This document shows positions 42,329 through 51,424 of a stretch of 51,424 nucleotides of DNA, piece by piece. Positions within the stretch are counted from its first letter, which is position 1. Each line of letters begins with the position of its first letter. The notes under the pieces were generated by a model. That model saw only the letters and a list, made by a program, of their open reading frames with translations, made no database searches and was not told the DNA's origin. A program made the translations under genes and the position numbers. This DNA comes from Blautia sp. (GTDB taxonomy: Bacteria > Bacillota > Clostridia > Lachnospirales > Lachnospiraceae), in assembly GCA_017459635.1 (NCBI GenBank), contig JAFUCO010000099.1, forward strand, positions 1-51,424. Direction: 5' to 3'.

Positions 42329-42862
42329 TTATTCGTAATCTCTTCCGATCTCCATGCATTTAAGGTTAAGATCAAGAAGGTCTGCATGTCTTGCCGAGAT
42401 GCATTTGCCAAGAGCTTTTTTGACAAGCTCCTCATCATATTCTCCGAATACCTGCAGCAGCTTGCCTACAAGTATCATGTTCGCAAGTGTCGGAACACCG
42501 TTGTCGCCTGCCAGCTTTGTGGCGGGAACATAATATACGTTCACATCGTCACGGGTGACTTTTCTTTCGATAAGGCTGCTGTCGACAAAAATGCTGCCGC
42601 CCGGCTTTACCATCGGCTCGTATTTGTCGAGTGACGGAAGGTTCATGGCAACCAGCACATCCGGGTTGGAGATGATCGGAGCGCCAACCGGGTCATCGCT
42701 TAAGATAACGCTGCAGTTTGCAGTGCCGCCGCGCATCTCCGGGCCGTAGGACGGAAGCCAGCTTACGTTCTTATCTTCGATCAGTCCTTTGTATGCGATC
42801 ACCTTTCCGGAGAACAGAAGTCCCTGTCCGCCGAATCCTGCAAAAAGTAATTCTCTGGTCAT
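42329..42862 (-). CDS. 2-oxoacid:ferredoxin oxidoreductase gamma subunit (VorC/KorC-type)
   Basis: Gamma-domain subunit of a CoA-dependent 2-oxoacid:ferredoxin oxidoreductase, helping to bind CoA. The 177 residues start MTRELLFAGFGGQGLLFSGK, with the conserved GFGGQG, then SWLPSYGPEMRGGTANCSVI. ATG 42862 was chosen because it has GGAGGC upstream and overlaps the beta-subunit stop in ATGA; a longer reading would lie mostly inside the beta gene. Confidence 0.93.
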   Translation of the reverse strand: MTRELLFAGFGGQGLLFSGKVIAYKGLIEDKNVSWLPSYGPEMRGGTANCSVILSDDPVGAPIISNPDVLVAMNLPSLDKYEPMVKPGGSIFVDSSLIERKVTRDDVNVYYVPATKLAGDNGVPTLANMILVGKLLQVFGEYDEELVKKALGKCISARHADLLDLNLKCMEIGRDYE

Positions 42863-43641
42863 TTGGCTGCCTCCTTTGCTCCGGGGATGATCCCTGCGCT
42901 TCTGTCCTTGTAAACACCAAGCGGATAATACGGGATCATGTTGTCGTCGATCCATTTAAGAGCCTGTGAAGGAGTCATTCCCCAGTTGGTCGGACAGGCC
43001 GAGATGACCTCGACGAGTGAAAAGCCCTTTCCGTCAACCTGGTTCTGGAATGCTTTCTTTATAGCTTTCTTTGCTTTATTTACATTTTTGACATTGTTTA
43101 CCGCAACACGCTCAAGGTATTCCGGTCCGTCAAGCATTGAAAGCATCTCGCAGATCTTTACAGGATAACCGCACTGGGTGACATCACGTCCATATGGAGA
43201 TGTCTGTGTAACCTGTCCCGGAAGGGAGGTTGGAGCCATCTGTCCGCCGGTCATTCCGTAAATTGCATTGTTGATGAAGACTACGGTGATATTCTCGTTT
43301 CTGGCAGCAGCGTGTACTGTCTCGGCAGTACCGATAGATGCAAGGTCGCCGTCTCCCTGATACGTGAAAACGATAAGGCCTTCGGGATCAGATCTTTTTA
43401 CGCCTGTAGCAACTGCCGGCGCGCGTCCGTGGGCTGCCTCGATCATGTCACAGCGGAAATAATCATAAGCCATAACAGCGCATCCTACCGGAGCAACGCC
43501 TACTGTTCTTCCTTCTATTCCAAGTTCATCGATAGCTTCCGCCACAAGGCGATGCACTATACCGTGTGTACATCCCGGGCAATAATGAAGCGGAACATCT
43601 GTAAGTGCATGGGGTTTATCAAAAACTACCATATCATTCAC
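42859..43641 (-). CDS. 2-oxoacid:ferredoxin oxidoreductase beta subunit (thiamine diphosphate-binding)
   Basis: Binds thiamine diphosphate and carries out decarboxylation or, in reverse, carboxylation at the C1 of the 2-oxo acid. The 260 residues include HYCPGCTHGIVHRLV (about 20), VGVAPVGCAVMAYDYF (about 47), the ThDP motif YQGDGDLASIGTAE...NNAIYGMTGGQMAPTS (about 95-135) and SLVEVISACPTNWG. It overlaps the alpha subunit by 8 bases and the gamma subunit by 4, indicating coupled translation. Confidence 0.94.
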   Translation of the reverse strand: MNDMVVFDKPHALTDVPLHYCPGCTHGIVHRLVAEAIDELGIEGRTVGVAPVGCAVMAYDYFRCDMIEAAHGRAPAVATGVKRSDPEGLIVFTYQGDGDLASIGTAETVHAAARNENITVVFINNAIYGMTGGQMAPTSLPGQVTQTSPYGRDVTQCGYPVKICEMLSMLDGPEYLERVAVNNVKNVNKAKKAIKKAFQNQVDGKGFSLVEVISACPTNWGMTPSQALKWIDDNMIPYYPLGVYKDRSAGIIPGAKEAAK

Positions 43642-44698
43642 CTGCCTTTCCGGCTGCTTCCCTGATGGAATTGTAAACCTGTTCCGGAGACGGGATCATA
43701 CCGCCTGCTCTTTTGCAGAGAGTTACAGGAACTGCGCATCCGGTGGCCAGCCTTACATCCTCTATCATCTGTCCCATTGACAGTTCAACACTGATGAACT
43801 GTTTTGCGGTGCCAAGTGCCTTTTTGAAGGTCTTCTCCGGGAACGGCCAGAGGGTTATCGGCCTGATAAGTCCTGCCTTGATGCCTTCTGCCCTTGCGGC
43901 ATTAACAGCGTTCTTCGCTACACGGGCCGCAATACCGAAGGCTGCAACGACTATCTCGGCATCCTCAAGCATGTATTCCTCTGCAAGAGCTTCCTTTTCA
44001 CAGATCATCGCGTATTTCTCATAGCGTTCAAAATTCTTGGCTTCCAGGACATCCGGAACAAGATAAAGGGAATTGACTACATTGTGCTCTCTCTTCATCT
44101 GTGTACCGGTGGTAGCCCACGGTTTCTCCGGAGCTTCCTTGATCTCGAAGTCGAAGGAGACCGGCTCCATCATCTGTCCGATGGTTCCGTCGGCCAGGAT
44201 CATTGATGTCATCCTGTACTCATCGGCAAGCTCAAAGCCGCGGATAGTAAGCTGTGCCATCTCCTGCACTGAAGCGGGTGCAAGGACTATCATGTGATAA
44301 TCGCCGTGTCCGCCGCCTCTTGTCGCCTGGAAATAATCCGACTGGCTCGGCTGGATGCCGCCAAGTCCCGGGCCGCCTCTCTGGCAGTTGACTACAACTG
44401 AGGGCAGGTCGGCGCCTGCAAGGTATGAGATACCTTCACTCTTCAGTGAGATTCCCGGGCTGGAGGATGAAGTCATGACACGTTTTCCAGCAGCCGAAAC
44501 TCCGTAAACCATATTTATAGCAGCTATCTCACTCTCAGCCTGAAGGAAGGTACCGCCTATCTTCGGCATTCTCTTTGCCATATACGCGGCGATCTCAGTC
44601 TGGGGAGTGATCGGATATCCGAAATAATGACGGCAGCCCGCAATGATAGCAGCCTCCGCGATAGCTTCGTTTCCCTTCATCAATACTTTTTCTGCCAC
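43634..44698 (-). CDS. vorB: VOR-type 2-oxoacid:ferredoxin oxidoreductase alpha subunit
   Basis: Alpha subunit of the four-subunit enzyme, resembling 3-methyl-2-oxobutanoate (branched-chain) ferredoxin oxidoreductases. The 354 residues contain KGNEAIAEAAIIAGCRHYFG, the YPITPQTEIAAYMAKRMP motif (about 28), TSSSSPGISLKSEGISYLAG (about 77) and GGPGLGGIQPSQSDYFQATRG (about 106). The family label alone does not exclude related substrates such as arylpyruvates or 2-oxoglutarate. It lies 11 bases downstream of the ferredoxin-like delta subunit. Confidence 0.92.
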   Translation of the reverse strand: MAEKVLMKGNEAIAEAAIIAGCRHYFGYPITPQTEIAAYMAKRMPKIGGTFLQAESEIAAINMVYGVSAAGKRVMTSSSSPGISLKSEGISYLAGADLPSVVVNCQRGGPGLGGIQPSQSDYFQATRGGGHGDYHMIVLAPASVQEMAQLTIRGFELADEYRMTSMILADGTIGQMMEPVSFDFEIKEAPEKPWATTGTQMKREHNVVNSLYLVPDVLEAKNFERYEKYAMICEKEALAEEYMLEDAEIVVAAFGIAARVAKNAVNAARAEGIKAGLIRPITLWPFPEKTFKKALGTAKQFISVELSMGQMIEDVRLATGCAVPVTLCKRAGGMIPSPEQVYNSIREAAGKAGE

Positions 44699-44709
44699 AG
44701 CATTTCACC

Positions 44710-44916
44710 TCACTTTTCTATCTTAATGATACAGTCCGGACACATCGTCGCGCACGACCTGCAGGCGATGCACGCCTCGGGATCAGCGCATTCAGCGGGG
44801 TGATGGCCCTTTTTGTTGATGGTATCCTTCGAAAGGCGAAGGATTCCTTTGGGACATGCTTCTATGCAGAGTCCGCATCCCTTGCATTCATCAGTTTTGA
44901 ATGTCAGTTTTGCCAT
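44710..44916 (-). CDS. 2-oxoacid:ferredoxin oxidoreductase delta (two 4Fe-4S ferredoxin) subunit
   Basis: Electron-transfer subunit passing electrons between the catalytic subunits and ferredoxin. The 68 residues carry two cluster motifs, CKGCGLCIEACP (about 11-22) and CIACRSCATMCP (about 49-60). The order delta-alpha-beta-gamma on the minus strand is normal for VOR/KOR operons. Confidence 0.95.
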   Translation of the reverse strand: MAKLTFKTDECKGCGLCIEACPKGILRLSKDTINKKGHHPAECADPEACIACRSCATMCPDCIIKIEK

Positions 44917-44946
44917 AATATCCTCCTTTTTTATTTGGGGTTACCA

Positions 44947-44972
44947 TTCACGGCCCAGCCGCAGGCGGCTGG
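44947..44972. repeat. GTTCACGGCC-type hairpin upstream of the VOR genes
   Basis: TTCACGGCCCAGCCGC followed by AGGCGGCTGG can pair (CAGCCGC with GCGGCTG). It lies in the 71-base gap between the ParA-like gene and the ferredoxin subunit gene, so it may tune expression within the operon. Confidence 0.6.
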
Positions 44973-44987
44973 TCAGCTGCAGGTGTA

Positions 44988-45650
44988 TTATACAGGCCGC
45001 TTCTGCAGGTGCATAGGAAACAGATCGTCTATCTTTCCCTCCAGAAGGCGTGCCACTTTCTCTTCCACGCTTGTCATGACAAGCGGAAGTCCTGAAAGTC
45101 TTGATACTAAAGATGCATAAGCCATGGAAGACAGTACCGTTTCCGCATCCGTCTCCGCTGCAAGGTTTGAATTGTTGATTATTCCGGTGAAAGGCAGCGA
45201 GGCCGCCGTTTCTATTTCGTGCATGATCTCAAGCGTTGACTGCGCGTCCGGTGTGAGCGGGCGGTAACGGTTAACCACGAGGAACATGTCATAGTCGTTC
45301 TCCTCGCGGATAGCCCCGGATATTCTCCCAAGGGCGTAGGCTCCGCGGTCGTCCCCTCCCACATCAACAATGCATGTAAGGCTTCTGTCATCTACCAGAG
45401 AGTACATTTCCTGCGGAAGCGCCGGGATATCCACATTTGAGTTGGCGTATGAGGATACCACAAGCTTTACCCCGGCTTCCCTTAAGTCATCCGCGCTGTC
45501 CACGGTCCTGAAATAGGGATTTACGATGTCAAGGTCAGCGATAACGACCTTCTCATGGTCTTTCGCAATATTTATAGCCATATTTACCGCCAGGTTTGTC
45601 TTGCCGCTTCCGTAGTGGCCGCAAAGAAGTGTGATTCTTTTATAATTCAT
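44988..45650 (-). CDS. ParA/MinD-family P-loop ATPase of unknown function in the VOR operon
   Basis: SIMIBI-type ATPase. The 220 residues start with the Walker A LLCGHYGSGKTNLAVNMA (about 9-26), then VVIADLDIVNPYFRTVD (about 37-53) and CIVDVGGDDRGAYALG (about 95-110). Unlike plasmid-partition ParA, there is no DNA-binding domain or partner ParB. It overlaps the end of the acyl-CoA synthetase gene by 11 bases and precedes the VOR genes, so it may serve assembly or regulation of that enzyme; this is inference. Confidence 0.82.
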   Translation of the reverse strand: MNYKRITLLCGHYGSGKTNLAVNMAINIAKDHEKVVIADLDIVNPYFRTVDSADDLREAGVKLVVSSYANSNVDIPALPQEMYSLVDDRSLTCIVDVGGDDRGAYALGRISGAIREENDYDMFLVVNRYRPLTPDAQSTLEIMHEIETAASLPFTGIINNSNLAAETDAETVLSSMAYASLVSRLSGLPLVMTSVEEKVARLLEGKIDDLFPMHLQKRPV

Positions 45651-47925
45651 GTCTGATGATCTTTCCGCTTACAGTCTTAGGAAGTTCATCCTTAAAGACT
45701 ACGATTCTTGGATATTTGTATGGTGCCGTGTGTTCCTTGACGTAATTCTGGATCTCCTTCACAAGTTCATCCGTTCCTTCATATCCGGGAACAAGCACGA
45801 TGCTGGCTTTTACAACAAAGCCTCTCACCGGATCCGGCGCAGCGCTTACGCCGCATTCAAGCACATACGGCAGCTCCATAAGGACGCTCTCGATCTCGAA
45901 CGGTCCGATACGGTATCCGGAAGACTTGATGACATCGTCCTTCCTGCCAACATACCAGTAGAAGCCGTCCTCATCCCTCCAGGCAAGGTCACCGGTATGA
46001 TACCAGCCGTTCTTCCAGGTATCGCGGGTCTCTTCCTCGTTCATATAATAGCAGGTCGCGACACCGCAGGGTATGCCGTTCTTTATATTGATGCAGATTT
46101 CGCCTTCCTCACCGGACGGAACAGGCTTGCCGTCCTCGCCTAAAAGCTGTACATCATAGGTCGGAACCGGCTTGCCCATCGAACCGATCTTATGCGGGGC
46201 GCCTACAAGGTTGCCGATGATAAGAGCGGATTCCGACTGGCCGAAGCCTTCCATGATGCGGAGTCCGGTCGCCTTCTCGAACTGCCTGTAAACTTCAGGA
46301 TTCAATGCTTCGCCGGCCGTCGTCATATGTTTTACGGACGAGAAATCGTACTTGCTGATATCCTGCTTGATCATCATGCGCAGCATCGTCGGAGGCGCGC
46401 AGAAGGTCGTAATATGATATTTTGCGAACATCGGAAGGATCTTTGAAGCATCGAACCTGTCAAAGTCATATACGAATATTGCTCCCTCGCAGAGCCACTG
46501 TCCGTAGATCTTGCCCCAGGTGGCCTTTGCCCATCCGGTGTCGGAAATTGTAAGGTGAAGTCCGTCCGGATCCACGGTCTGCCAGTATTTTGCAGTGTGG
46601 AAATGTCCGAGCGGATATTTATATGTATGGGCAGCGATCTTGGGATATCCGGATGTGCCCGAAGTAAAGTACATAAGCATCATGTCATCACCGCACGGTG
46701 ATATGCCTGTACGGCGGAACCTTGAGCTGTAGAGCGGATATTCCTCATCAAAGGAACGCCATCCTTCTCTCTGACCATTAACTATCAGCATGTTCTGGAG
46801 CATGCCGCATTTTTCCTGGGCGATCTCCACCTGATGGGCGGTATCACCGTCTGCCGTACAGATGATGGAGGTGATGCCTGCAGTGCGGAACCTGTATTCC
46901 AGGTCATGGTCAAGCAGCTGGTTGGTTGCCGGTATTGCAATGGCGCCAAGCTTGTTAAGGCCAACAAGCGCATACCAGAACTGGTAATGCCTCTTCAGGA
47001 TGAGCATTACTCGGTCGCCCTTCTTGATGCCCAGCGATTTGAAATAATTCGCGCAGCGGGCCGACTCTTTTCGGACGTTTTCAAACGTTATCCTTCGCTC
47101 AGTGCCGTCCTTTGAGATATGCAGCATTGCAAGCTTCTCAGGGTCGCGGGCTGCAAGAGCATCGACCAGGTCAAAGGCGAAGTTGAAACGGTTCGCGTTT
47201 TTGAACGTGATGGAAACAGGAGTGCCCTTTTCATTCTCTTTGACATCGATAAAGTCGTGCCAGATGCGCTCGCTGTCATCTACGGTGCTTATTACCGTTT
47301 CTTCCTCGATTATCGGCTGCTGTGTAAGCTCCGGTATCGGCTCTCCGGCCGGGTTAAGGACGATAGCATAGAAGATGCAGTCCTGTCCGCCTACAGCGAT
47401 CATGCCGTGGGGCGTACTGCTGTCGTAATAAATGCTGTCCCCGGGTCCGAGTATCTCGCTGTGCTCGCCTATCTGTACCTTCAGGCTTCCTTCAACAACA
47501 ATGTCGCATTCCTGACCGTCATGCTTTGTCAGGTCAATCGGCTTATCCTGTGCCGCTTCATCAAACACGCTGCGCACGTAAAGGGGCTCGGCTATCCTGT
47601 TCTGGAATGCATAGGCAAGGTTGTAATAGGTCATGCCATGGGCACGCGATATCTTCTGCCCTCCGCCCGAACGGGTCAGTGTATAGGAGCGAAGATTCGG
47701 GCTGTAGCCTTCAAGGATGTCCGTAACGGAAACCTTCAGGGCAAGTGAGCAGCGATAGATGAAGGTGAAGTTCAGGTCCTGCATTCCGGATTCGCCCTCC
47801 AGATACTCCTGAACCGACAGATCCGTCGCCTGCGCCATCTCTTCCGGTGTTTTGTTTTCAAGCTCGCGGAGAACCCGTATTCGTCCGGCGATCTCCTGAA
47901 TCTTATAATCCAGTTCCTGTTCCAT
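45640..47925 (-). CDS. XRE-cupin-acyl-CoA synthetase fusion protein (copy next to VOR)
   Basis: A 761-residue three-part protein. Residues about 8-65 are an XRE helix-turn-helix (IAGRIRVLRELENKTPEEMA); about 105-195 are a cupin (LTKHDGQECDIVVEGSLKVQ, SIYYDSSTPHGMIAV); about 235-761 are a complete adenylate-forming acyl-CoA synthetase with MLMYFTSGTSGYPKIAAH, MEGFGQSESALI, WYHTGDLAWRDEDGFYWYVG and the C-terminal catalytic Lys in PKTVSGKII. All usual synthetase motifs are intact, so it should make an acyl-CoA from an acid, ATP and CoA. The N-terminal part resembles XRE-cupin regulators, suggesting that the enzyme also binds DNA or senses a ligand. Its mRNA leader is a T-box. Confidence 0.92.
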   Translation of the reverse strand: MEQELDYKIQEIAGRIRVLRELENKTPEEMAQATDLSVQEYLEGESGMQDLNFTFIYRCSLALKVSVTDILEGYSPNLRSYTLTRSGGGQKISRAHGMTYYNLAYAFQNRIAEPLYVRSVFDEAAQDKPIDLTKHDGQECDIVVEGSLKVQIGEHSEILGPGDSIYYDSSTPHGMIAVGGQDCIFYAIVLNPAGEPIPELTQQPIIEEETVISTVDDSERIWHDFIDVKENEKGTPVSITFKNANRFNFAFDLVDALAARDPEKLAMLHISKDGTERRITFENVRKESARCANYFKSLGIKKGDRVMLILKRHYQFWYALVGLNKLGAIAIPATNQLLDHDLEYRFRTAGITSIICTADGDTAHQVEIAQEKCGMLQNMLIVNGQREGWRSFDEEYPLYSSRFRRTGISPCGDDMMLMYFTSGTSGYPKIAAHTYKYPLGHFHTAKYWQTVDPDGLHLTISDTGWAKATWGKIYGQWLCEGAIFVYDFDRFDASKILPMFAKYHITTFCAPPTMLRMMIKQDISKYDFSSVKHMTTAGEALNPEVYRQFEKATGLRIMEGFGQSESALIIGNLVGAPHKIGSMGKPVPTYDVQLLGEDGKPVPSGEEGEICINIKNGIPCGVATCYYMNEEETRDTWKNGWYHTGDLAWRDEDGFYWYVGRKDDVIKSSGYRIGPFEIESVLMELPYVLECGVSAAPDPVRGFVVKASIVLVPGYEGTDELVKEIQNYVKEHTAPYKYPRIVVFKDELPKTVSGKIIRHEL

Positions 47926-48024
47926 TTGCTGTCCTCGGCTTTCTTTGTGATCTTTGAAACTGCCACAAAGTACTCAGTTTCTTGTTAAGGTTCCTGGGAC
48001 AGGTGCAGAAGTCTTCTTATACAG

Positions 48025-48326
48025 AAAAACGCACCCGTCTCAATTTCCTTTGAGACGAGTGCGTGAATATACACCCGCGGTACCACTCAAATTGCCGCTT
48101 AAATAAACGACCACTCATCGGGAATCCCATGAATCCCTGCGCTCCTCACGCGGCGCGGACGGGAAGCATCTACTGGGGCAGGTAATCTCTGAATTTGCCT
48201 GTATTGCCTGTCTGTTCTCGCTTCCGGCTCGGAAGGGACGGGCCTTGTGGAACTCCTCTGCCGCTTCACACCACACAGCGGCTCTCTGAAAGATTCTGTC
48301 CCGGGCCGACTTCGTCATCGCCTTTA
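48025..48326 (-). ncRNA. T-box riboswitch upstream of the VOR-linked acyl-CoA synthetase
   Basis: On the minus strand the leader begins GGCGATGACGAAG, has the AGAGAG and GGTGTGAA-type stem I features, and ends in the T-box sequence GAGTGGTACCGCGGGT (48073-48088). The terminator is a perfect 14-base stem (48030-48043 with 48050-48063) followed by five T. If GAAG pairs with CTTC at the base of the specifier loop, the codon position is GTC (48237-48239), which suggests Val; the alternative loop placement would give other codons, so this reading is tentative. Confidence 0.93.
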
Positions 48327-48333
48327 GTAAGCT

Positions 48334-48362
48334 ATAATATCACCAGTCTCAAAATCCGTCAA
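48334..48362 (-). promoter_or_regulatory. Promoter of the VOR-linked T-box transcript
   Basis: TTGACG (48357-48362) and TATTAT (48334-48339) on the minus strand are separated by 17 bases, placing the transcript start near 48327, at the beginning of stem I. Confidence 0.8.
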
Positions 48363-48382
48363 TATATTTTTTATTTACGGCC

Positions 48383-48546
48383 GTAAGGAAATCTACAATG
48401 CTCTGCCATGCTTGCATGAGCAGAGCATTGTAGATTTCCTTACAGGGTCTGAGCCCTTTATGAGGAATCCAGCCGCGAAGCGGCGATGAAGCCCGCAAGG
48501 GCGAGATTCCGAATGAAGGGCTCAGACCCGGCCGCTTGCGGCCGGG
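48383..48546. other. Block of three hairpins after the first acyl-CoA synthetase gene
   Basis: Hairpin 1: a perfect 24-base inverted repeat (48383-48406 with 48420-48443). Hairpin 2: a 14-base outer stem (GGGTCTGAGCCCTT, 48445-48458 with 48516-48529), an inner GGAATC/GATTCC stem, and two small hairpins inside (48472-48484 and 48491-48502), giving a four-way-junction shape. Hairpin 3: CCCGGCCG/CGGCCGGG (48527-48546), which competes for the last bases of hairpin 2. No reading frame is supported. It lies between the stop codon of one synthetase gene and the promoter of the next. Confidence 0.75.
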
Positions 48547-48566
48547 CCGTAAGTCACGATAATCGT

Positions 48567-50834
48567 TTACAGCAGATTTCTCTGAATCTTACCGCTGATG
48601 GTCTTCGGCAGTTCATCACGGAACACAACAAGCCTTGGATATTTATATGGCGCTGTATGCCGTTTTACATAGTTCTGTATTTCTTTCGCAAGGTCATGCG
48701 ATGGCTTGGTTCCCTTGGTAAGGACAATGCTCGCCTTCACGATCTGTCCTCTTACCGGATCCGGCTGTGCGCTGACACCGCACTCAAGTACATACGGAAG
48801 TTCCATGATGACGCTCTCGATCTCGAACGGTCCGATACGGTATCCGGAGGATTTGATGACGTCATCCACACGTCCGATATACCACAGGAAGCCGTCCTCA
48901 TCACGCCATGCCTGGTCGCCTGTATGGTAATAACCGTCATGCCATACCTTTCTGGTTGATTCTTCGTCTTTATAATATCCCTGGAAGAGGCCGTTCGGGA
49001 TCCCCTTGTCGGTCCTTATAACGATCTCGCCCGGCTCGCCGTCCGGTACCGGATTTCCGTCTGGATCCATCAGGTCAACATCATAAAGAGGTGAAGGCTT
49101 GCCCATTGATCCGACCTTGTGTGTGCCGCCCATAAGGTTTCCGACAGTCATGGTAGTTTCGGTCTGGCCGAAGCCTTCCATGATCTGCAGGCCGGTCGCT
49201 TTTTCGAATTGTACATAAACCTCGGGGTTCAGGGCCTCTCCGGCTGTAGTCATGTGAACTACCGATGAGAAATCATACTTGGAAAGATCCTCTTTTATAA
49301 GCATACGGAGTATGGTCGGCGGCGCGCAGAACGTTGTGATCTTGTATTTGGCGAACATCGGAAGGATCTCTGCTGCATTGAAGCGGTCAAAATCATATGT
49401 GAAAACTGCGCCTTCACAGAGCCACTGGCCGTAGATCTTGCCCCAAAGTGCCTTGCCCCATCCTGTCTCGGATATTGTAAAATGAAGGCCGTTGTCGCTC
49501 ACTCCGTGCCAGTATCTGGCGGTTATGTAATGTCCAAGCGGATAAGTGTAGGAATGTGCCGCGATCTTCGGATATCCGGTTGTGCCGGAGGTGAAGAACA
49601 TGAGCATCGTGTCCTTCCCGCAGGGGGCATCCTTCTTCCTGTAATAATGAGCGCTGAACTGTTCGATCTCCTCGTTATAGTCATGCCAGCCCGGACGGCT
49701 GCCGCCTACCAGTATCTTGAGTTCAAGTGTCGGGCTCTGTGGCTCGGCCTCTTCAACATGATCTGGAACCTGATCCTCTGTAGTTGCGACTATTGCTGTT
49801 ACATCAGCCAGATTGAAGCGATATTCGAAATCATGCTTCTGCAGCTGGCTGGTTGCCGGGATAGCGATGGCGCCGATCTTATGAAGCGCAACGATAACAT
49901 GCCAGAACTGATAATGACGTTTAAGCACAATCATTACCTTGTCGCCCTTCTTGATACCCAGGGATTTAAAGTAGTTTGCGCACTGGTTTGATGATCTCTT
50001 CATGTCACGGAATGTGAAGCGTCTTTCCGTACCGTCATTTGAGATATGCAGCATGGCGAGCTTGTCCGGAGATTTCCTCGCTATCGCGTCTACAACATCA
50101 AAGCCGAAATTGAACGTATCGTCATTCTTGAACTGTATGGATTTAAGTAGGCCGTTCTCATCCTCTTCAGTCTCCACAAAAGCATCGCAGACAAGCTTTC
50201 TCTGCGGCGCCCGTGTGCTGATGAGCGTGTTCCGTATGACAGTCTCCTTTTCTCCTGACCCCGGCATGATAAAGGCGAGGAAGGTACATGCCTGTCCGTC
50301 CGTCGCGATCATTCCATGAGGCAGACTGCTGTTATAGAAGATGCTGTCGCCTTCGCTTAAGTATTCTACCGTATCGCCGACCTGCACTTTCAGGCGGCCT
50401 GACATGATATAGTCAAATTCCTGTCCGGAATGCTGAGTCGTATGGATAGGCTTGTCCTGAAGATCCTCGGAATATTCATATTTTACCCAGTAGGGCTCCG
50501 CGATCTTATTCCGGAACATCGGAGCCATGTTCATGATCTGGATGCCATCCTCAGTAATGGGATCCTGAAGGTGGCCTTTCCTCATGACTGTACATGTGGA
50601 AAGTCTCGCGCTCTGGCCTTCAAGAAGATCACTCATACCAACATTAAATGTAAGAGCACATTTATGTATAAAGGTAAAGGGAATATCCGTTTTCCCTTCC
50701 TCGTATGTCATATACTGTTCTACTGATACTTCGGTCTTTTCCGCCATCTCAGATACGGAATAACCGGTGATCTCACGCATCTCACGGATACGGTGTGCAA
50801 GTTCCATCAGGTTTTTTTCGTCTACTGATGCCAT
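48567..50834 (-). CDS. XRE-cupin-acyl-CoA synthetase fusion protein (upstream paralogue)
   Basis: A 755-residue paralogue of the protein at 45640-47925, with the same three parts: an XRE domain (about 8-65, LAHRIREMREITGYSVSEMA), a cupin (about 105-195, TTQHSGQEFDYIMSGRLKVQ and SIFYNSSLPHGMIAT), and an acyl-CoA synthetase (about 230-755) with MLMFFTSGTTGYPKIAAH, MEGFGQTETTMTV, YYHTGDQAWRDEDGFLWYIG and PKTISGKIQ with the catalytic Lys. Its start has GGAGG upstream, and its leader is a separate T-box. The pair differ throughout, so this is not a very recent duplication; differing acid preference is plausible. Confidence 0.92.
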   Translation of the reverse strand: MASVDEKNLMELAHRIREMREITGYSVSEMAEKTEVSVEQYMTYEEGKTDIPFTFIHKCALTFNVGMSDLLEGQSARLSTCTVMRKGHLQDPITEDGIQIMNMAPMFRNKIAEPYWVKYEYSEDLQDKPIHTTQHSGQEFDYIMSGRLKVQVGDTVEYLSEGDSIFYNSSLPHGMIATDGQACTFLAFIMPGSGEKETVIRNTLISTRAPQRKLVCDAFVETEEDENGLLKSIQFKNDDTFNFGFDVVDAIARKSPDKLAMLHISNDGTERRFTFRDMKRSSNQCANYFKSLGIKKGDKVMIVLKRHYQFWHVIVALHKIGAIAIPATSQLQKHDFEYRFNLADVTAIVATTEDQVPDHVEEAEPQSPTLELKILVGGSRPGWHDYNEEIEQFSAHYYRKKDAPCGKDTMLMFFTSGTTGYPKIAAHSYTYPLGHYITARYWHGVSDNGLHFTISETGWGKALWGKIYGQWLCEGAVFTYDFDRFNAAEILPMFAKYKITTFCAPPTILRMLIKEDLSKYDFSSVVHMTTAGEALNPEVYVQFEKATGLQIMEGFGQTETTMTVGNLMGGTHKVGSMGKPSPLYDVDLMDPDGNPVPDGEPGEIVIRTDKGIPNGLFQGYYKDEESTRKVWHDGYYHTGDQAWRDEDGFLWYIGRVDDVIKSSGYRIGPFEIESVIMELPYVLECGVSAQPDPVRGQIVKASIVLTKGTKPSHDLAKEIQNYVKRHTAPYKYPRLVVFRDELPKTISGKIQRNLL

Positions 50835-50876
50835 TGTTGTACCTCCATGCTTTTCTGCTTAACGGGCTTTATGCAC

Positions 50877-51142
50877 AAAAAAAAGCCCGTCACAAAGTGT
50901 TCTTTGAGACGAGCATTTATACCCGCGGTACCACTCAAATTGCCGTTAATAAACGACCACTCACCGGGATCCATCAATCCCTATGCCTTGACGCAGCATA
51001 TACGGGAAACGTCTACTCGGATAACATCCTTTCGGGCTTCCGGCTCGGAAGTGATAAGTCATTAGGATGTCTGCCTCCGGTTTCCACCACCCACCGGCTC
51101 TCTGTGCGCTTCGTACCCTGACCGTCTTCGTCATCGCCTTTC
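50877..51142 (-). ncRNA. T-box riboswitch upstream of the second acyl-CoA synthetase
   Basis: The minus-strand leader starts GGCGATGACGAAG, carries AGAGAG (51098-51103) and an apical GGTGGTGGAAACC loop, and ends with the T-box GAGTGGTACCGCGGGT (50921-50936). The terminator is a 13-base stem with one mismatch (50885-50897 with 50902-50914) followed by eight T. With GAAG paired to CTTC, the specifier position is ATC followed by A (51053-51055), suggesting Ile. The upper part of stem I pairs poorly by eye, so the codon call is tentative. Confidence 0.93.
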
Positions 51143-51150
51143 AAATGTGC

Positions 51151-51179
51151 ATTTTAGCACCATCTGAAAATTCCGTCAA
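51151..51179 (-). promoter_or_regulatory. Promoter of the second T-box transcript
   Basis: TTGACG (51174-51179) and TAAAAT (51151-51156) on the minus strand are separated by exactly 17 bases, placing the start near 51144, just before stem I. Confidence 0.8.
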
Positions 51180-51424
51180 CCCCTTTTTTAAGGGGCTGTG
51201 AAAAAGTAAGCTTTAGTTCCCTATTATTTTTTATAAGCACTTACATTAGTAACTTTTGCTGCAGTCCCTAAACCCCTTATTTTTACAGGAATTTCGAAAA
51301 TAATAATTGAAATAATGCCAGATATATAGTATAATGTACTTATATATTTAATTGTATAAGCACATATTAAAAAGGTATTATTTATGTACATTATTTACTC
51401 TGGGAGCAGTAACCAATATGCTTC
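51180..51424. other. AT-rich window end without a recognised gene
   Basis: Positions about 51181-51205 hold a CCCTTTTTTAAGGGG hairpin merging with the GGGCTGTGAAAAAG repeat seen near 5398 and 19198. The remainder is AT-rich. A possible reading frame starts near the end (ATGTACATTATTTACTC from 51383), but it runs off the window and cannot be judged. Confidence 0.4.

Follow-up and report, generated by a model that had tools for sequence, protein, structure and literature searches.

The window analyzed here is a 51,424-nucleotide stretch of a Blautia sp. assembly (GCA_017459635.1, contig JAFUCO010000099.1) that carries two acyl-CoA synthetase genes, each behind a T-box leader, and a VOR-type oxidoreductase operon. 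The locus raises the question of why acid-activating enzymes and a ferredoxin-dependent oxidoreductase should be controlled by RNA elements that sense uncharged tRNA. The need of rumen bacteria for isobutyrate, 2-methylbutyrate or isovalerate, which they incorporate into amino acids, was recognized as early as the 1960s. We conclude that the window very probably holds a module for branched-chain amino acid synthesis under T-box control, one that converts isobutyrate and 2-methylbutyrate to valine and isoleucine.

Two T-box leaders carry isoleucine and valine specifiers

The cmscan matches to RF00230 cover model positions 1 to 219 in both leaders, a full-length match of sequence and structure, and bear out the original prediction of T-boxes ahead of the two synthetase genes (Table 1). 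The leader 5′ ends given in that prediction lie within one base of the cmscan ends, and its ranges also take in the terminators. Both leaders have the T-box sequence UGGUACCGCG (UGGN) and a competing terminator hairpin with a T-run. A gathering-level search of the whole window returned no T-box match, with the two leaders at 90.1 and 69.7 bits against the Rfam gathering score of 93 bits, which is a curation threshold. None of the five T-boxes in the window genome reaches 93 bits, and orthologous leaders score above it at L024 (108.8 and 93.3 bits), L082 (103.1 bits), L035 (100.7 bits), L025 (119.8 bits) and L031 (123.2 bits). The cmscan matches in the window and in the orthologous leaders rule out chance or false T-boxes, and the leader-gene arrangement was found again in 80 loci and thus is not due to chance. 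A regular expression matched a third site in the window (33417), which by eye lies at the start of an apparent alaS coding sequence and is no T-box.

The specifier codon had been named as a check on the predicted link to amino acid synthesis, with isoleucine, valine, leucine and phenylalanine as candidates. The cmscan alignments show AUC (Ile) in leader 1 and GUC (Val) in leader 2, both amino acids related to VOR products, which narrows the list to these two for this window. Three control leaders in the same genome confirmed the register, with UGG read for trpE, ACC for thrS and UGG for a trpB-like gene.

Table 1. Features of the T-box-controlled region of the window
Feature	Position	Strand	Basis
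T-box leader 1, isoleucine specifier	50902..51143	-	RF00230, cmscan, 90.1 bits, E 1.5e-19
Specifier codon AUC (Ile), leader 1, 6 nt ahead of Stem I GAG	51053..51055	-	cmscan alignment
Leader 1 intrinsic terminator hairpin, adjoining T-run	50881..50918	-	Hairpin search and fold, -16.8 kcal/mol
ACS1, MbcS/Macs-like acyl-CoA synthetase with fused N-terminal HTH-like and cupin parts; 2-methylbutyrate as inferred substrate	48567..50834	-	Pfam/NCBIfam
T-box leader 2, valine specifier	48048..48327	-	RF00230, cmscan, 69.7 bits, E 2.7e-14
Specifier codon GUC (Val), leader 2	48237..48239	-	cmscan alignment
Leader 2 intrinsic terminator hairpin, 15-bp stem then T-run	48029..48064	-	-24.8 kcal/mol
ACS2, MbcS/Macs-like acyl-CoA synthetase with fused cupin; isobutyrate as inferred substrate	45640..47925	-	Pfam/NCBIfam
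CbiA/MinD-like small P-loop ATPase	44988..45650	-	Pfam CbiA; in 73/80 loci
Ferredoxin-type subunit, two 4Fe-4S motifs	44710..44916	-	Pfam Fer4 families, conserved cysteines
VOR alpha subunit (NCBIfam name VorB)	43634..44698	-	PRK07119, 538 bits vs cut-off 399
VOR beta subunit, TPP-binding	42859..43641	-	Pfam TPP_enzyme_C; KorB/PorB-like under curated cut-offs
VOR gamma subunit; likelier start 42862, with the ORF open as far as 42955	42329..42862	-	Pfam POR

The synthetases resemble enzymes for branched short-chain acids

Pfam and NCBIfam assign both ACS1 and ACS2 to the AMP-binding synthetases with an N-terminal cupin, and the HTH family matches in ACS1 fall under the Pfam cut-offs. The closest solved structure to ACS1 is 3etc_A (E 1.3e-189), which we take to be Macs. 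ACS1 and ACS2 form two separate clades (support 1.0), and one position in the catalytic domain (Gly460/Ala466) is Gly in 72/72 ACS1 and Ala in 85/85 ACS2 sequences. Against the MbcS equivalog NF047394, ACS1 and ACS2 score 424.8 and 430.1 bits, far under the curated cut-off of 850, and we therefore call them only MbcS/Macs-like. They share the synthetase branch with MbcS of Staphylococcus aureus and Macs of Methanosarcina acetivorans but differ from both in the fused N-terminal HTH-like/cupin part and in scoring well under the MbcS cut-off. The known substrates of these two enzymes are 2-methylbutyrate and isobutyrate: MbcS is described as selective for both acids (PMC10026030), and Macs is described as preferring 2-methylbutyrate (PMC10455477).

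These substrates would also suit a role in membrane lipid synthesis, in which the synthetases make isobutyryl-CoA and 2-methylbutyryl-CoA as FabH primers for branched-chain fatty acids, and exogenous acids are needed when primers derived from amino acids run out. S. aureus MbcS is reported to have such a role (PMC10026030). Primer supply, however, leaves unexplained why the VOR genes share a transcription unit with the synthetase in 58/80 loci and why AHAS and KARI are missing, and we consider it very unlikely. The primer supply and amino acid synthesis uses could coexist.

A complete VOR-type oxidoreductase follows the valine leader

The operon behind leader 2 runs from ACS2 through the P-loop ATPase and ferredoxin genes to VOR alpha, beta and gamma. 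As had been predicted for one of the two synthetase genes, ACS2 is followed by a full VOR-type oxidoreductase: the Pfam and NCBIfam matches comprise alpha (POR_N/PFOR_II), beta (TPP_enzyme_C), gamma (POR) and a ferredoxin-type delta subunit (Fer4). Only alpha passes a curated NCBIfam cut-off, that for 3-methyl-2-oxobutanoate dehydrogenase subunit VorB (PRK07119). We moved the gamma start from 42955 to 42862, an ATG overlapping the beta stop, which is probably the true start because the profile match opens at ORF residue 32.

In principle, the T-boxes could respond as read while the VOR acts mainly on another substrate, since some VOR-like enzymes of Blautia hydrogenotrophica are described as favoring aromatic 2-oxo acids (PMC13290082). 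The alpha subunit nevertheless exceeds the cut-off of the 3-methyl-2-oxobutanoate model, and branched substrates fit the Ile and Val specifiers. We regard an explanation of this kind as extremely improbable. In the window, the VOR genes stand behind the Val T-box only, which counts against the amino acid synthesis reading as far as VOR expression under isoleucine shortage is concerned.

Specifier identity follows synthetase type in relatives

Among distinct leaders, an Ile specifier was found in 75/75 of the ACS1 type and a Val specifier in 66/66 of the ACS2 type. These totals leave out exact copies of L013, L024 and L028 among L101 to L104, as well as L087 (the L083 contig), and include eight new ACS1 leaders (all Ile) and five new ACS2 leaders (all Val) from the order sample. 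A third module with another synthetase, ACS3, has a Leu T-box in 23/23 cases. The specifier goes with the kind of synthetase whatever the locus or gene order, even where ACS1 and ACS2 each head a VOR operon of their own (L093/L094 and L186/L187). L079 is from the isolate YRB3002, in which the ACS genes carry Val and Ile T-boxes. With exact duplicates counted, a terminator lies 3′ of 77/77 ACS1 and 66/67 ACS2 leaders examined.

A strict specifier regular expression left 1/64 ACS1 and 7/61 ACS2 leaders unread or wrong (one as CAA); these were read by eye, and the expression was relaxed. The relaxed form was wrong on the trpE control and on the LeuAx leaders L024, L025 and L031, where the cmscan alignments give UGG and CUG. 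A replacement of ACS3 by LeuD in G000 and G003 was considered and dropped; by eye, the neighbors of LeuD in G000 are CaiB-, HMG-CoA lyase- and PrpF-like genes.

Nearly all genomes with the operon lack the classical genes

KARI was over the cut-off in 2/50 operon genomes, compared to 14/14 control genomes and 133/196 genomes of the order, and acetolactate synthase (AHAS) was present in 2/51 operon genomes. With nearly all of them lacking both enzymes, the operon genomes require a replacement route if they make valine and isoleucine. KARI loss by itself does not point to the VOR-synthetase route, because 52 order genomes without the fused synthetase also lack KARI. Genes for acid activation and ferredoxin-dependent carboxylation are present in the window, and a class-IV aminotransferase for transamination was found at E ≤ 1e-15 in 45/51 operon genomes. 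The window genome gave no aminotransferase match, and neither Val(GAC) nor Ile(GAU) was among the tRNAs seen; at its 66.8% completeness, these absences are uninformative.

Related VOR operons (L139, L140, L143, L147 and L151) have in common with the T-box loci the ferredoxin, VOR alpha, beta and gamma, cupin regulator-like and synthetase families. They differ in having no T-box, a downstream or last synthetase gene and a (XRE-)cupin that is mostly a separate reading frame, and KARI is present in most of those genomes. A T-box search of the VOR-synthetase operons of KARI-positive genomes found none, and loose T-box motif matches in the control stretches L169, L171 and L173 had no cmscan support.

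Such T-box-free operons in KARI-positive genomes can be cited both for the synthesis reading and for a rival one, a catabolic module. There, VOR would take part in amino acid fermentation by oxidizing branched 2-oxo acids to their acyl-CoAs, the synthetases would work in salvage or ATP recovery, and the T-boxes would be incidental. The gut Clostridia VOR enzymes measured to date are reported as oxidative, which counts against synthesis; those of Clostridium sporogenes, Intestinibacter bartlettii and B. hydrogenotrophica were oxidative in lysate assays, and one is said to be induced by branched-chain amino acids (all as described in PMC13290082). However, T-boxes boost expression under amino acid shortage, the opposite of what breakdown needs, and the specifier of each synthetase type is conserved without exception. 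AMP-forming synthetases, moreover, consume ATP, and KARI and AHAS are missing. On this evidence, we judge catabolism to be very unlikely.

Proposed pathway and relation to known systems

The regulation and gene content of the module are well supported; its substrates, reaction direction and actual tRNA response we infer. Uncharged tRNA-Ile would allow readthrough of leader 1 and production of ACS1, which would convert 2-methylbutyrate to 2-methylbutyryl-CoA. Uncharged tRNA-Val would likewise allow readthrough of leader 2 and production of ACS2, ferredoxin and VOR, with ACS2 converting isobutyrate to isobutyryl-CoA. Working in the reductive direction, VOR would combine acyl-CoA, CO2 and reduced ferredoxin into the 2-oxo acid, and a class-IV aminotransferase encoded elsewhere in the genome would complete valine and isoleucine. 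In most module-bearing genomes, the module would replace the missing AHAS-KARI-DHAD route. The order of steps, from acid to acyl-CoA, reductive carboxylation and transamination, is that of the original prediction, which the Ile and Val specifiers and the near-absence of KARI and AHAS support, with the direction presumed.

T-boxes and carboxylation of branched-chain volatile fatty acids (BCVFA) are each already known. The leaders resemble the RF00230 T-boxes of ilv/leu and aminoacyl-tRNA synthetase genes in their Stem I specifier, T-box sequence, antiterminator/terminator and starvation logic, but the genes controlled here encode fatty acid-activating enzymes and a ferredoxin-dependent oxidoreductase. 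In a term search, "ferredoxin" and "acyl-CoA" were absent from the main text of the T-box surveys PMC2494555 and PMC3766115. The chemistry is like that of BCVFA reductive carboxylation, for which leucine formation from isovalerate is cited in PMC7356843. That earlier work was physiology, whereas the window offers candidate genes together with matching RNA control. The original prediction held that such control had not been seen described for reductive carboxylation. Among the papers searched, which did not include two other main T-box surveys, we likewise found no report of T-box control combined with BCVFA carboxylation, and none that assigns the synthesis of amino acids from branched acids to genes under amino acid-specific control.

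The T-boxes would supply a physiological direction for an otherwise ambiguous enzyme class and point to the acid that each synthetase handles. They also make the old branched-acid question directly testable in cultured relatives. Gut bacteria, mostly of herbivores, that lack the usual valine and isoleucine genes appear to build these amino acids from short branched fatty acids. We lean slightly toward the further view that bacteria with the module are obligate cross-feeders of protein-fermenting neighbors, and that the T-box form arose when an older VOR operon under cupin regulation was rewired for anabolism, its regulator becoming part of the enzyme as a possible sensor. The T-box-synthetase module would be a genomic marker of dependence on branched-chain acids, which bears on rumen feeding and on cross-feeding in the gut.

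T-box leaders and their specifier codons

The original prediction placed T-box leaders before two acyl-CoA synthetase genes (ACS1 and ACS2), one of them followed by a full 2-oxoisovalerate:ferredoxin oxidoreductase (VOR), and matches to the T-box model RF00230 confirmed a leader at each gene. Both leaders span the whole model, and because their scores fall below its gathering score of 93, a gathering search of the window was empty. Each leader is followed by a hairpin and a T-run, like T-boxes that attenuate transcription, and leader 2 would still be met by transcripts coming from ACS1. A match to Clostridiales-1 RNA (RF01699; 50.6 bits, gathering 48) lies on the plus strand between ACS1 and leader 2 (48375-48552); it was seen in a small-range search only and was absent from the whole-window gathering search.

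Features of the synthetase-VOR run in the window and an example of the leucine module
Feature	Position	Strand	Remarks
T-box leader 1	51143-50902	minus	RF00230, E 1.5e-19
ACS1	50834-48567	minus	after leader 1 in transcription order
T-box leader 2	48327-48048	minus	RF00230, E 2.7e-14
ACS2	47925-45640	minus	after leader 2
CbiA/MinD-like ATPase, small	44988-45650	minus	between ACS2 and ferredoxin; motifs GHYGxGKTN and ADLDIVNPY
Ferredoxin, then VOR alpha, beta, gamma	run ends at 42329	minus	downstream of the CbiA-type ATPase
Leu T-box module (example)	L013:1230-5128		similar modules in other loci

We took the specifier from cmscan alignments as the triplet six bases ahead of the GAG that closes Stem I. 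In this register, the specifier check proposed in the original prediction read leader 1 as AUC (Ile) and leader 2 as GUC (Val). Three further T-boxes in the window genome pass E 0.001; the genes behind them, read by eye, are trpE, thrS, and a gene for a TrpB-like protein, and since their specifiers are UGG, ACC, and UGG, respectively, the register is sound. With exact duplicates removed, the specifier was AUC in 75/75 ACS1 leaders and GUC or GUA in 66/66 ACS2 leaders, sets that include 8 and 5 leaders, respectively, from an order-wide sample, with one duplicate left out of each. Leaders were read by script and some by eye; for 20, including both window leaders, cmscan alignments were used as well.

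A full-text literature search found no paper tying T-boxes to acyl-CoA synthetases or VOR, although it covered T-box surveys only partly and an earlier mention is possible. The terms "ferredoxin" and "acyl-CoA" are absent from the main text of two such surveys (PMC2494555, PMC3766115). Published work on VOR in gut Clostridia describes oxidative function (PMC13290082).

Conservation of the operon in relatives

A scan of genome contigs gave 451 ACS2 relatives, and we kept the best 80 loci. Judging by record titles, many are from metagenome-assembled genomes of the guts of ruminants or other herbivores (RGIG isolate name, host, and gut site in 34/80). The whole run ACS1-ACS2-ATPase-ferredoxin-VOR alpha-beta-gamma was present in 58 of these best 80 of 451, and the small ATPase was present in 73. 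Both T-boxes were found in 44 of the 58 whole-run loci, the Ile T-box only in 9, the Val T-box only in 2, and none was seen in 3. Contig ends truncate most of the remaining 22 loci, six of which have just ACS2 and its Val T-box.

The specifier codon tracks the synthetase gene and not its position. Genome G153 has one operon ordered Val T-box-ACS2-ferredoxin-VOR and another ordered Ile T-box-ACS1-ATPase-ferredoxin-VOR alpha (L093, L094), while in G016 and G019 an Ile T-box heads ACS1-ATPase-ferredoxin-VOR and ACS2 lies elsewhere with a Val T-box. In G041 and G049, an Ile T-box is also found on a more distant synthetase (54-57% identity); VOR is at a separate site, with no T-box within the stretch examined there.

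Classical branched-chain amino acid synthesis

Using TIGR00465, KARI was over the cut-off in 2/50 operon genomes (representing 50 of the 80 loci), compared to 14/14 control genomes and 133/196 genomes of the order. Acetolactate synthase (AHAS) was over the cut-off in 2/51 genomes, the same two, and IlvD in 4/51, these two and two others. Poor genome completeness might leave such gaps, but a class-IV aminotransferase was present in 45/51, which argues against this cause. In the two operon genomes that have KARI and AHAS, G033 (C59, L107) and G037 (C55), these genes cluster with IlvD and LeuD on a single contig, which is either a further complete pathway or contamination of the bin. By eye, LeuC/LeuD-like genes in G000 (C44, 88000-104810; L105) adjoin CaiB-, HMG-CoA lyase-, and PrpF-like genes and are probably not for leucine synthesis.

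In the order sample, 12 genomes have a cupin-fused synthetase of full or nearly full length with at least 48% identity, and KARI is absent from 11 of them versus 52/184 others (Fisher p 1.8e-5, kinship ignored). The exception, G207, has KARI, and a motif search found no T-box ahead of either of its synthetase genes (L097, L098). Within one genus (g40), the synthetase occurs without KARI in four genomes (G153, G169, G177, G193), and KARI occurs without a synthetase match in three (G080, G144, G231). Completeness of the window genome is 66.8%; G223, of the same genus, has KARI and no ACS2 match, and the window's nearer relatives by ACS2 sequence (L006, L009; genomes G001, G002) are without KARI.

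Related operons without a T-box

Our controls were 19 stretches from 16 genomes of the order, carrying a synthetase of about 45-60% identity that in nearly every case was not of the fused full-length form, and 17 further upstream stretches. No T-box was found in the 19 by gathering search, or in the 17 plus two at E<=0.01. The VOR operon start lies within six upstream stretches (G054, G148, G189, G222, G191, G101), all from KARI-positive genomes. G097 and G134 have no KARI and no T-box in their control stretches; elsewhere, G134 has ACS1 with an Ile T-box.

In those control operons the cupin protein mostly has a gene of its own, located between those for VOR gamma and the synthetase, whereas in both window synthetases an HTH-like/cupin module is fused on within the N-terminal ~190 residues. 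This module is possibly an amino acid or acyl sensor.

Proposed synthetase substrates and a leucine T-box module

The 72 ACS1 and 85 ACS2 sequences separate into two clades (support 1.0). Ten alignment columns strictly discriminate them: nine fall within the N-terminal HTH/cupin part, and the tenth is a position of the catalytic domain at which ACS1 has Gly460, ACS2 has Ala466, and 3etc, the nearest solved relative, has Gly. We take this site to border the acyl pocket, as in acetyl-CoA synthetase. The smaller residue stands where the larger acid is expected, which fits 2-methylbutyrate as the ACS1 substrate and isobutyrate as that of ACS2.

A further T-box stands ahead of a LeuA-like gene in 23 of the 80 loci kept; the LeuA-like gene is followed by ACS3, an acyl-CoA synthetase fused to a xylose-isomerase-like (TIM-barrel) domain. 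The specifier is CUC or CUG in 23/23 (20 by script, three by cmscan). Isopropylmalate synthase is expected to have RDGxQ and HxH motifs. Both are missing from the LeuA-like protein in an alignment of 14 sequences, of which three or more come from duplicate contigs. The protein keeps the leucine-binding LeuA dimer domain but is unlikely to be a working synthase. ACS3 was present in 49/51 genomes and was not found in G003 or in the window genome. The module suggests a possible conversion of isovalerate to leucine. Staphylococcus aureus MbcS prefers 2-methylbutyrate and isobutyrate and uses isovalerate poorly (PMC10026030), a pattern that would account for leucine having an ACS3 of its own.
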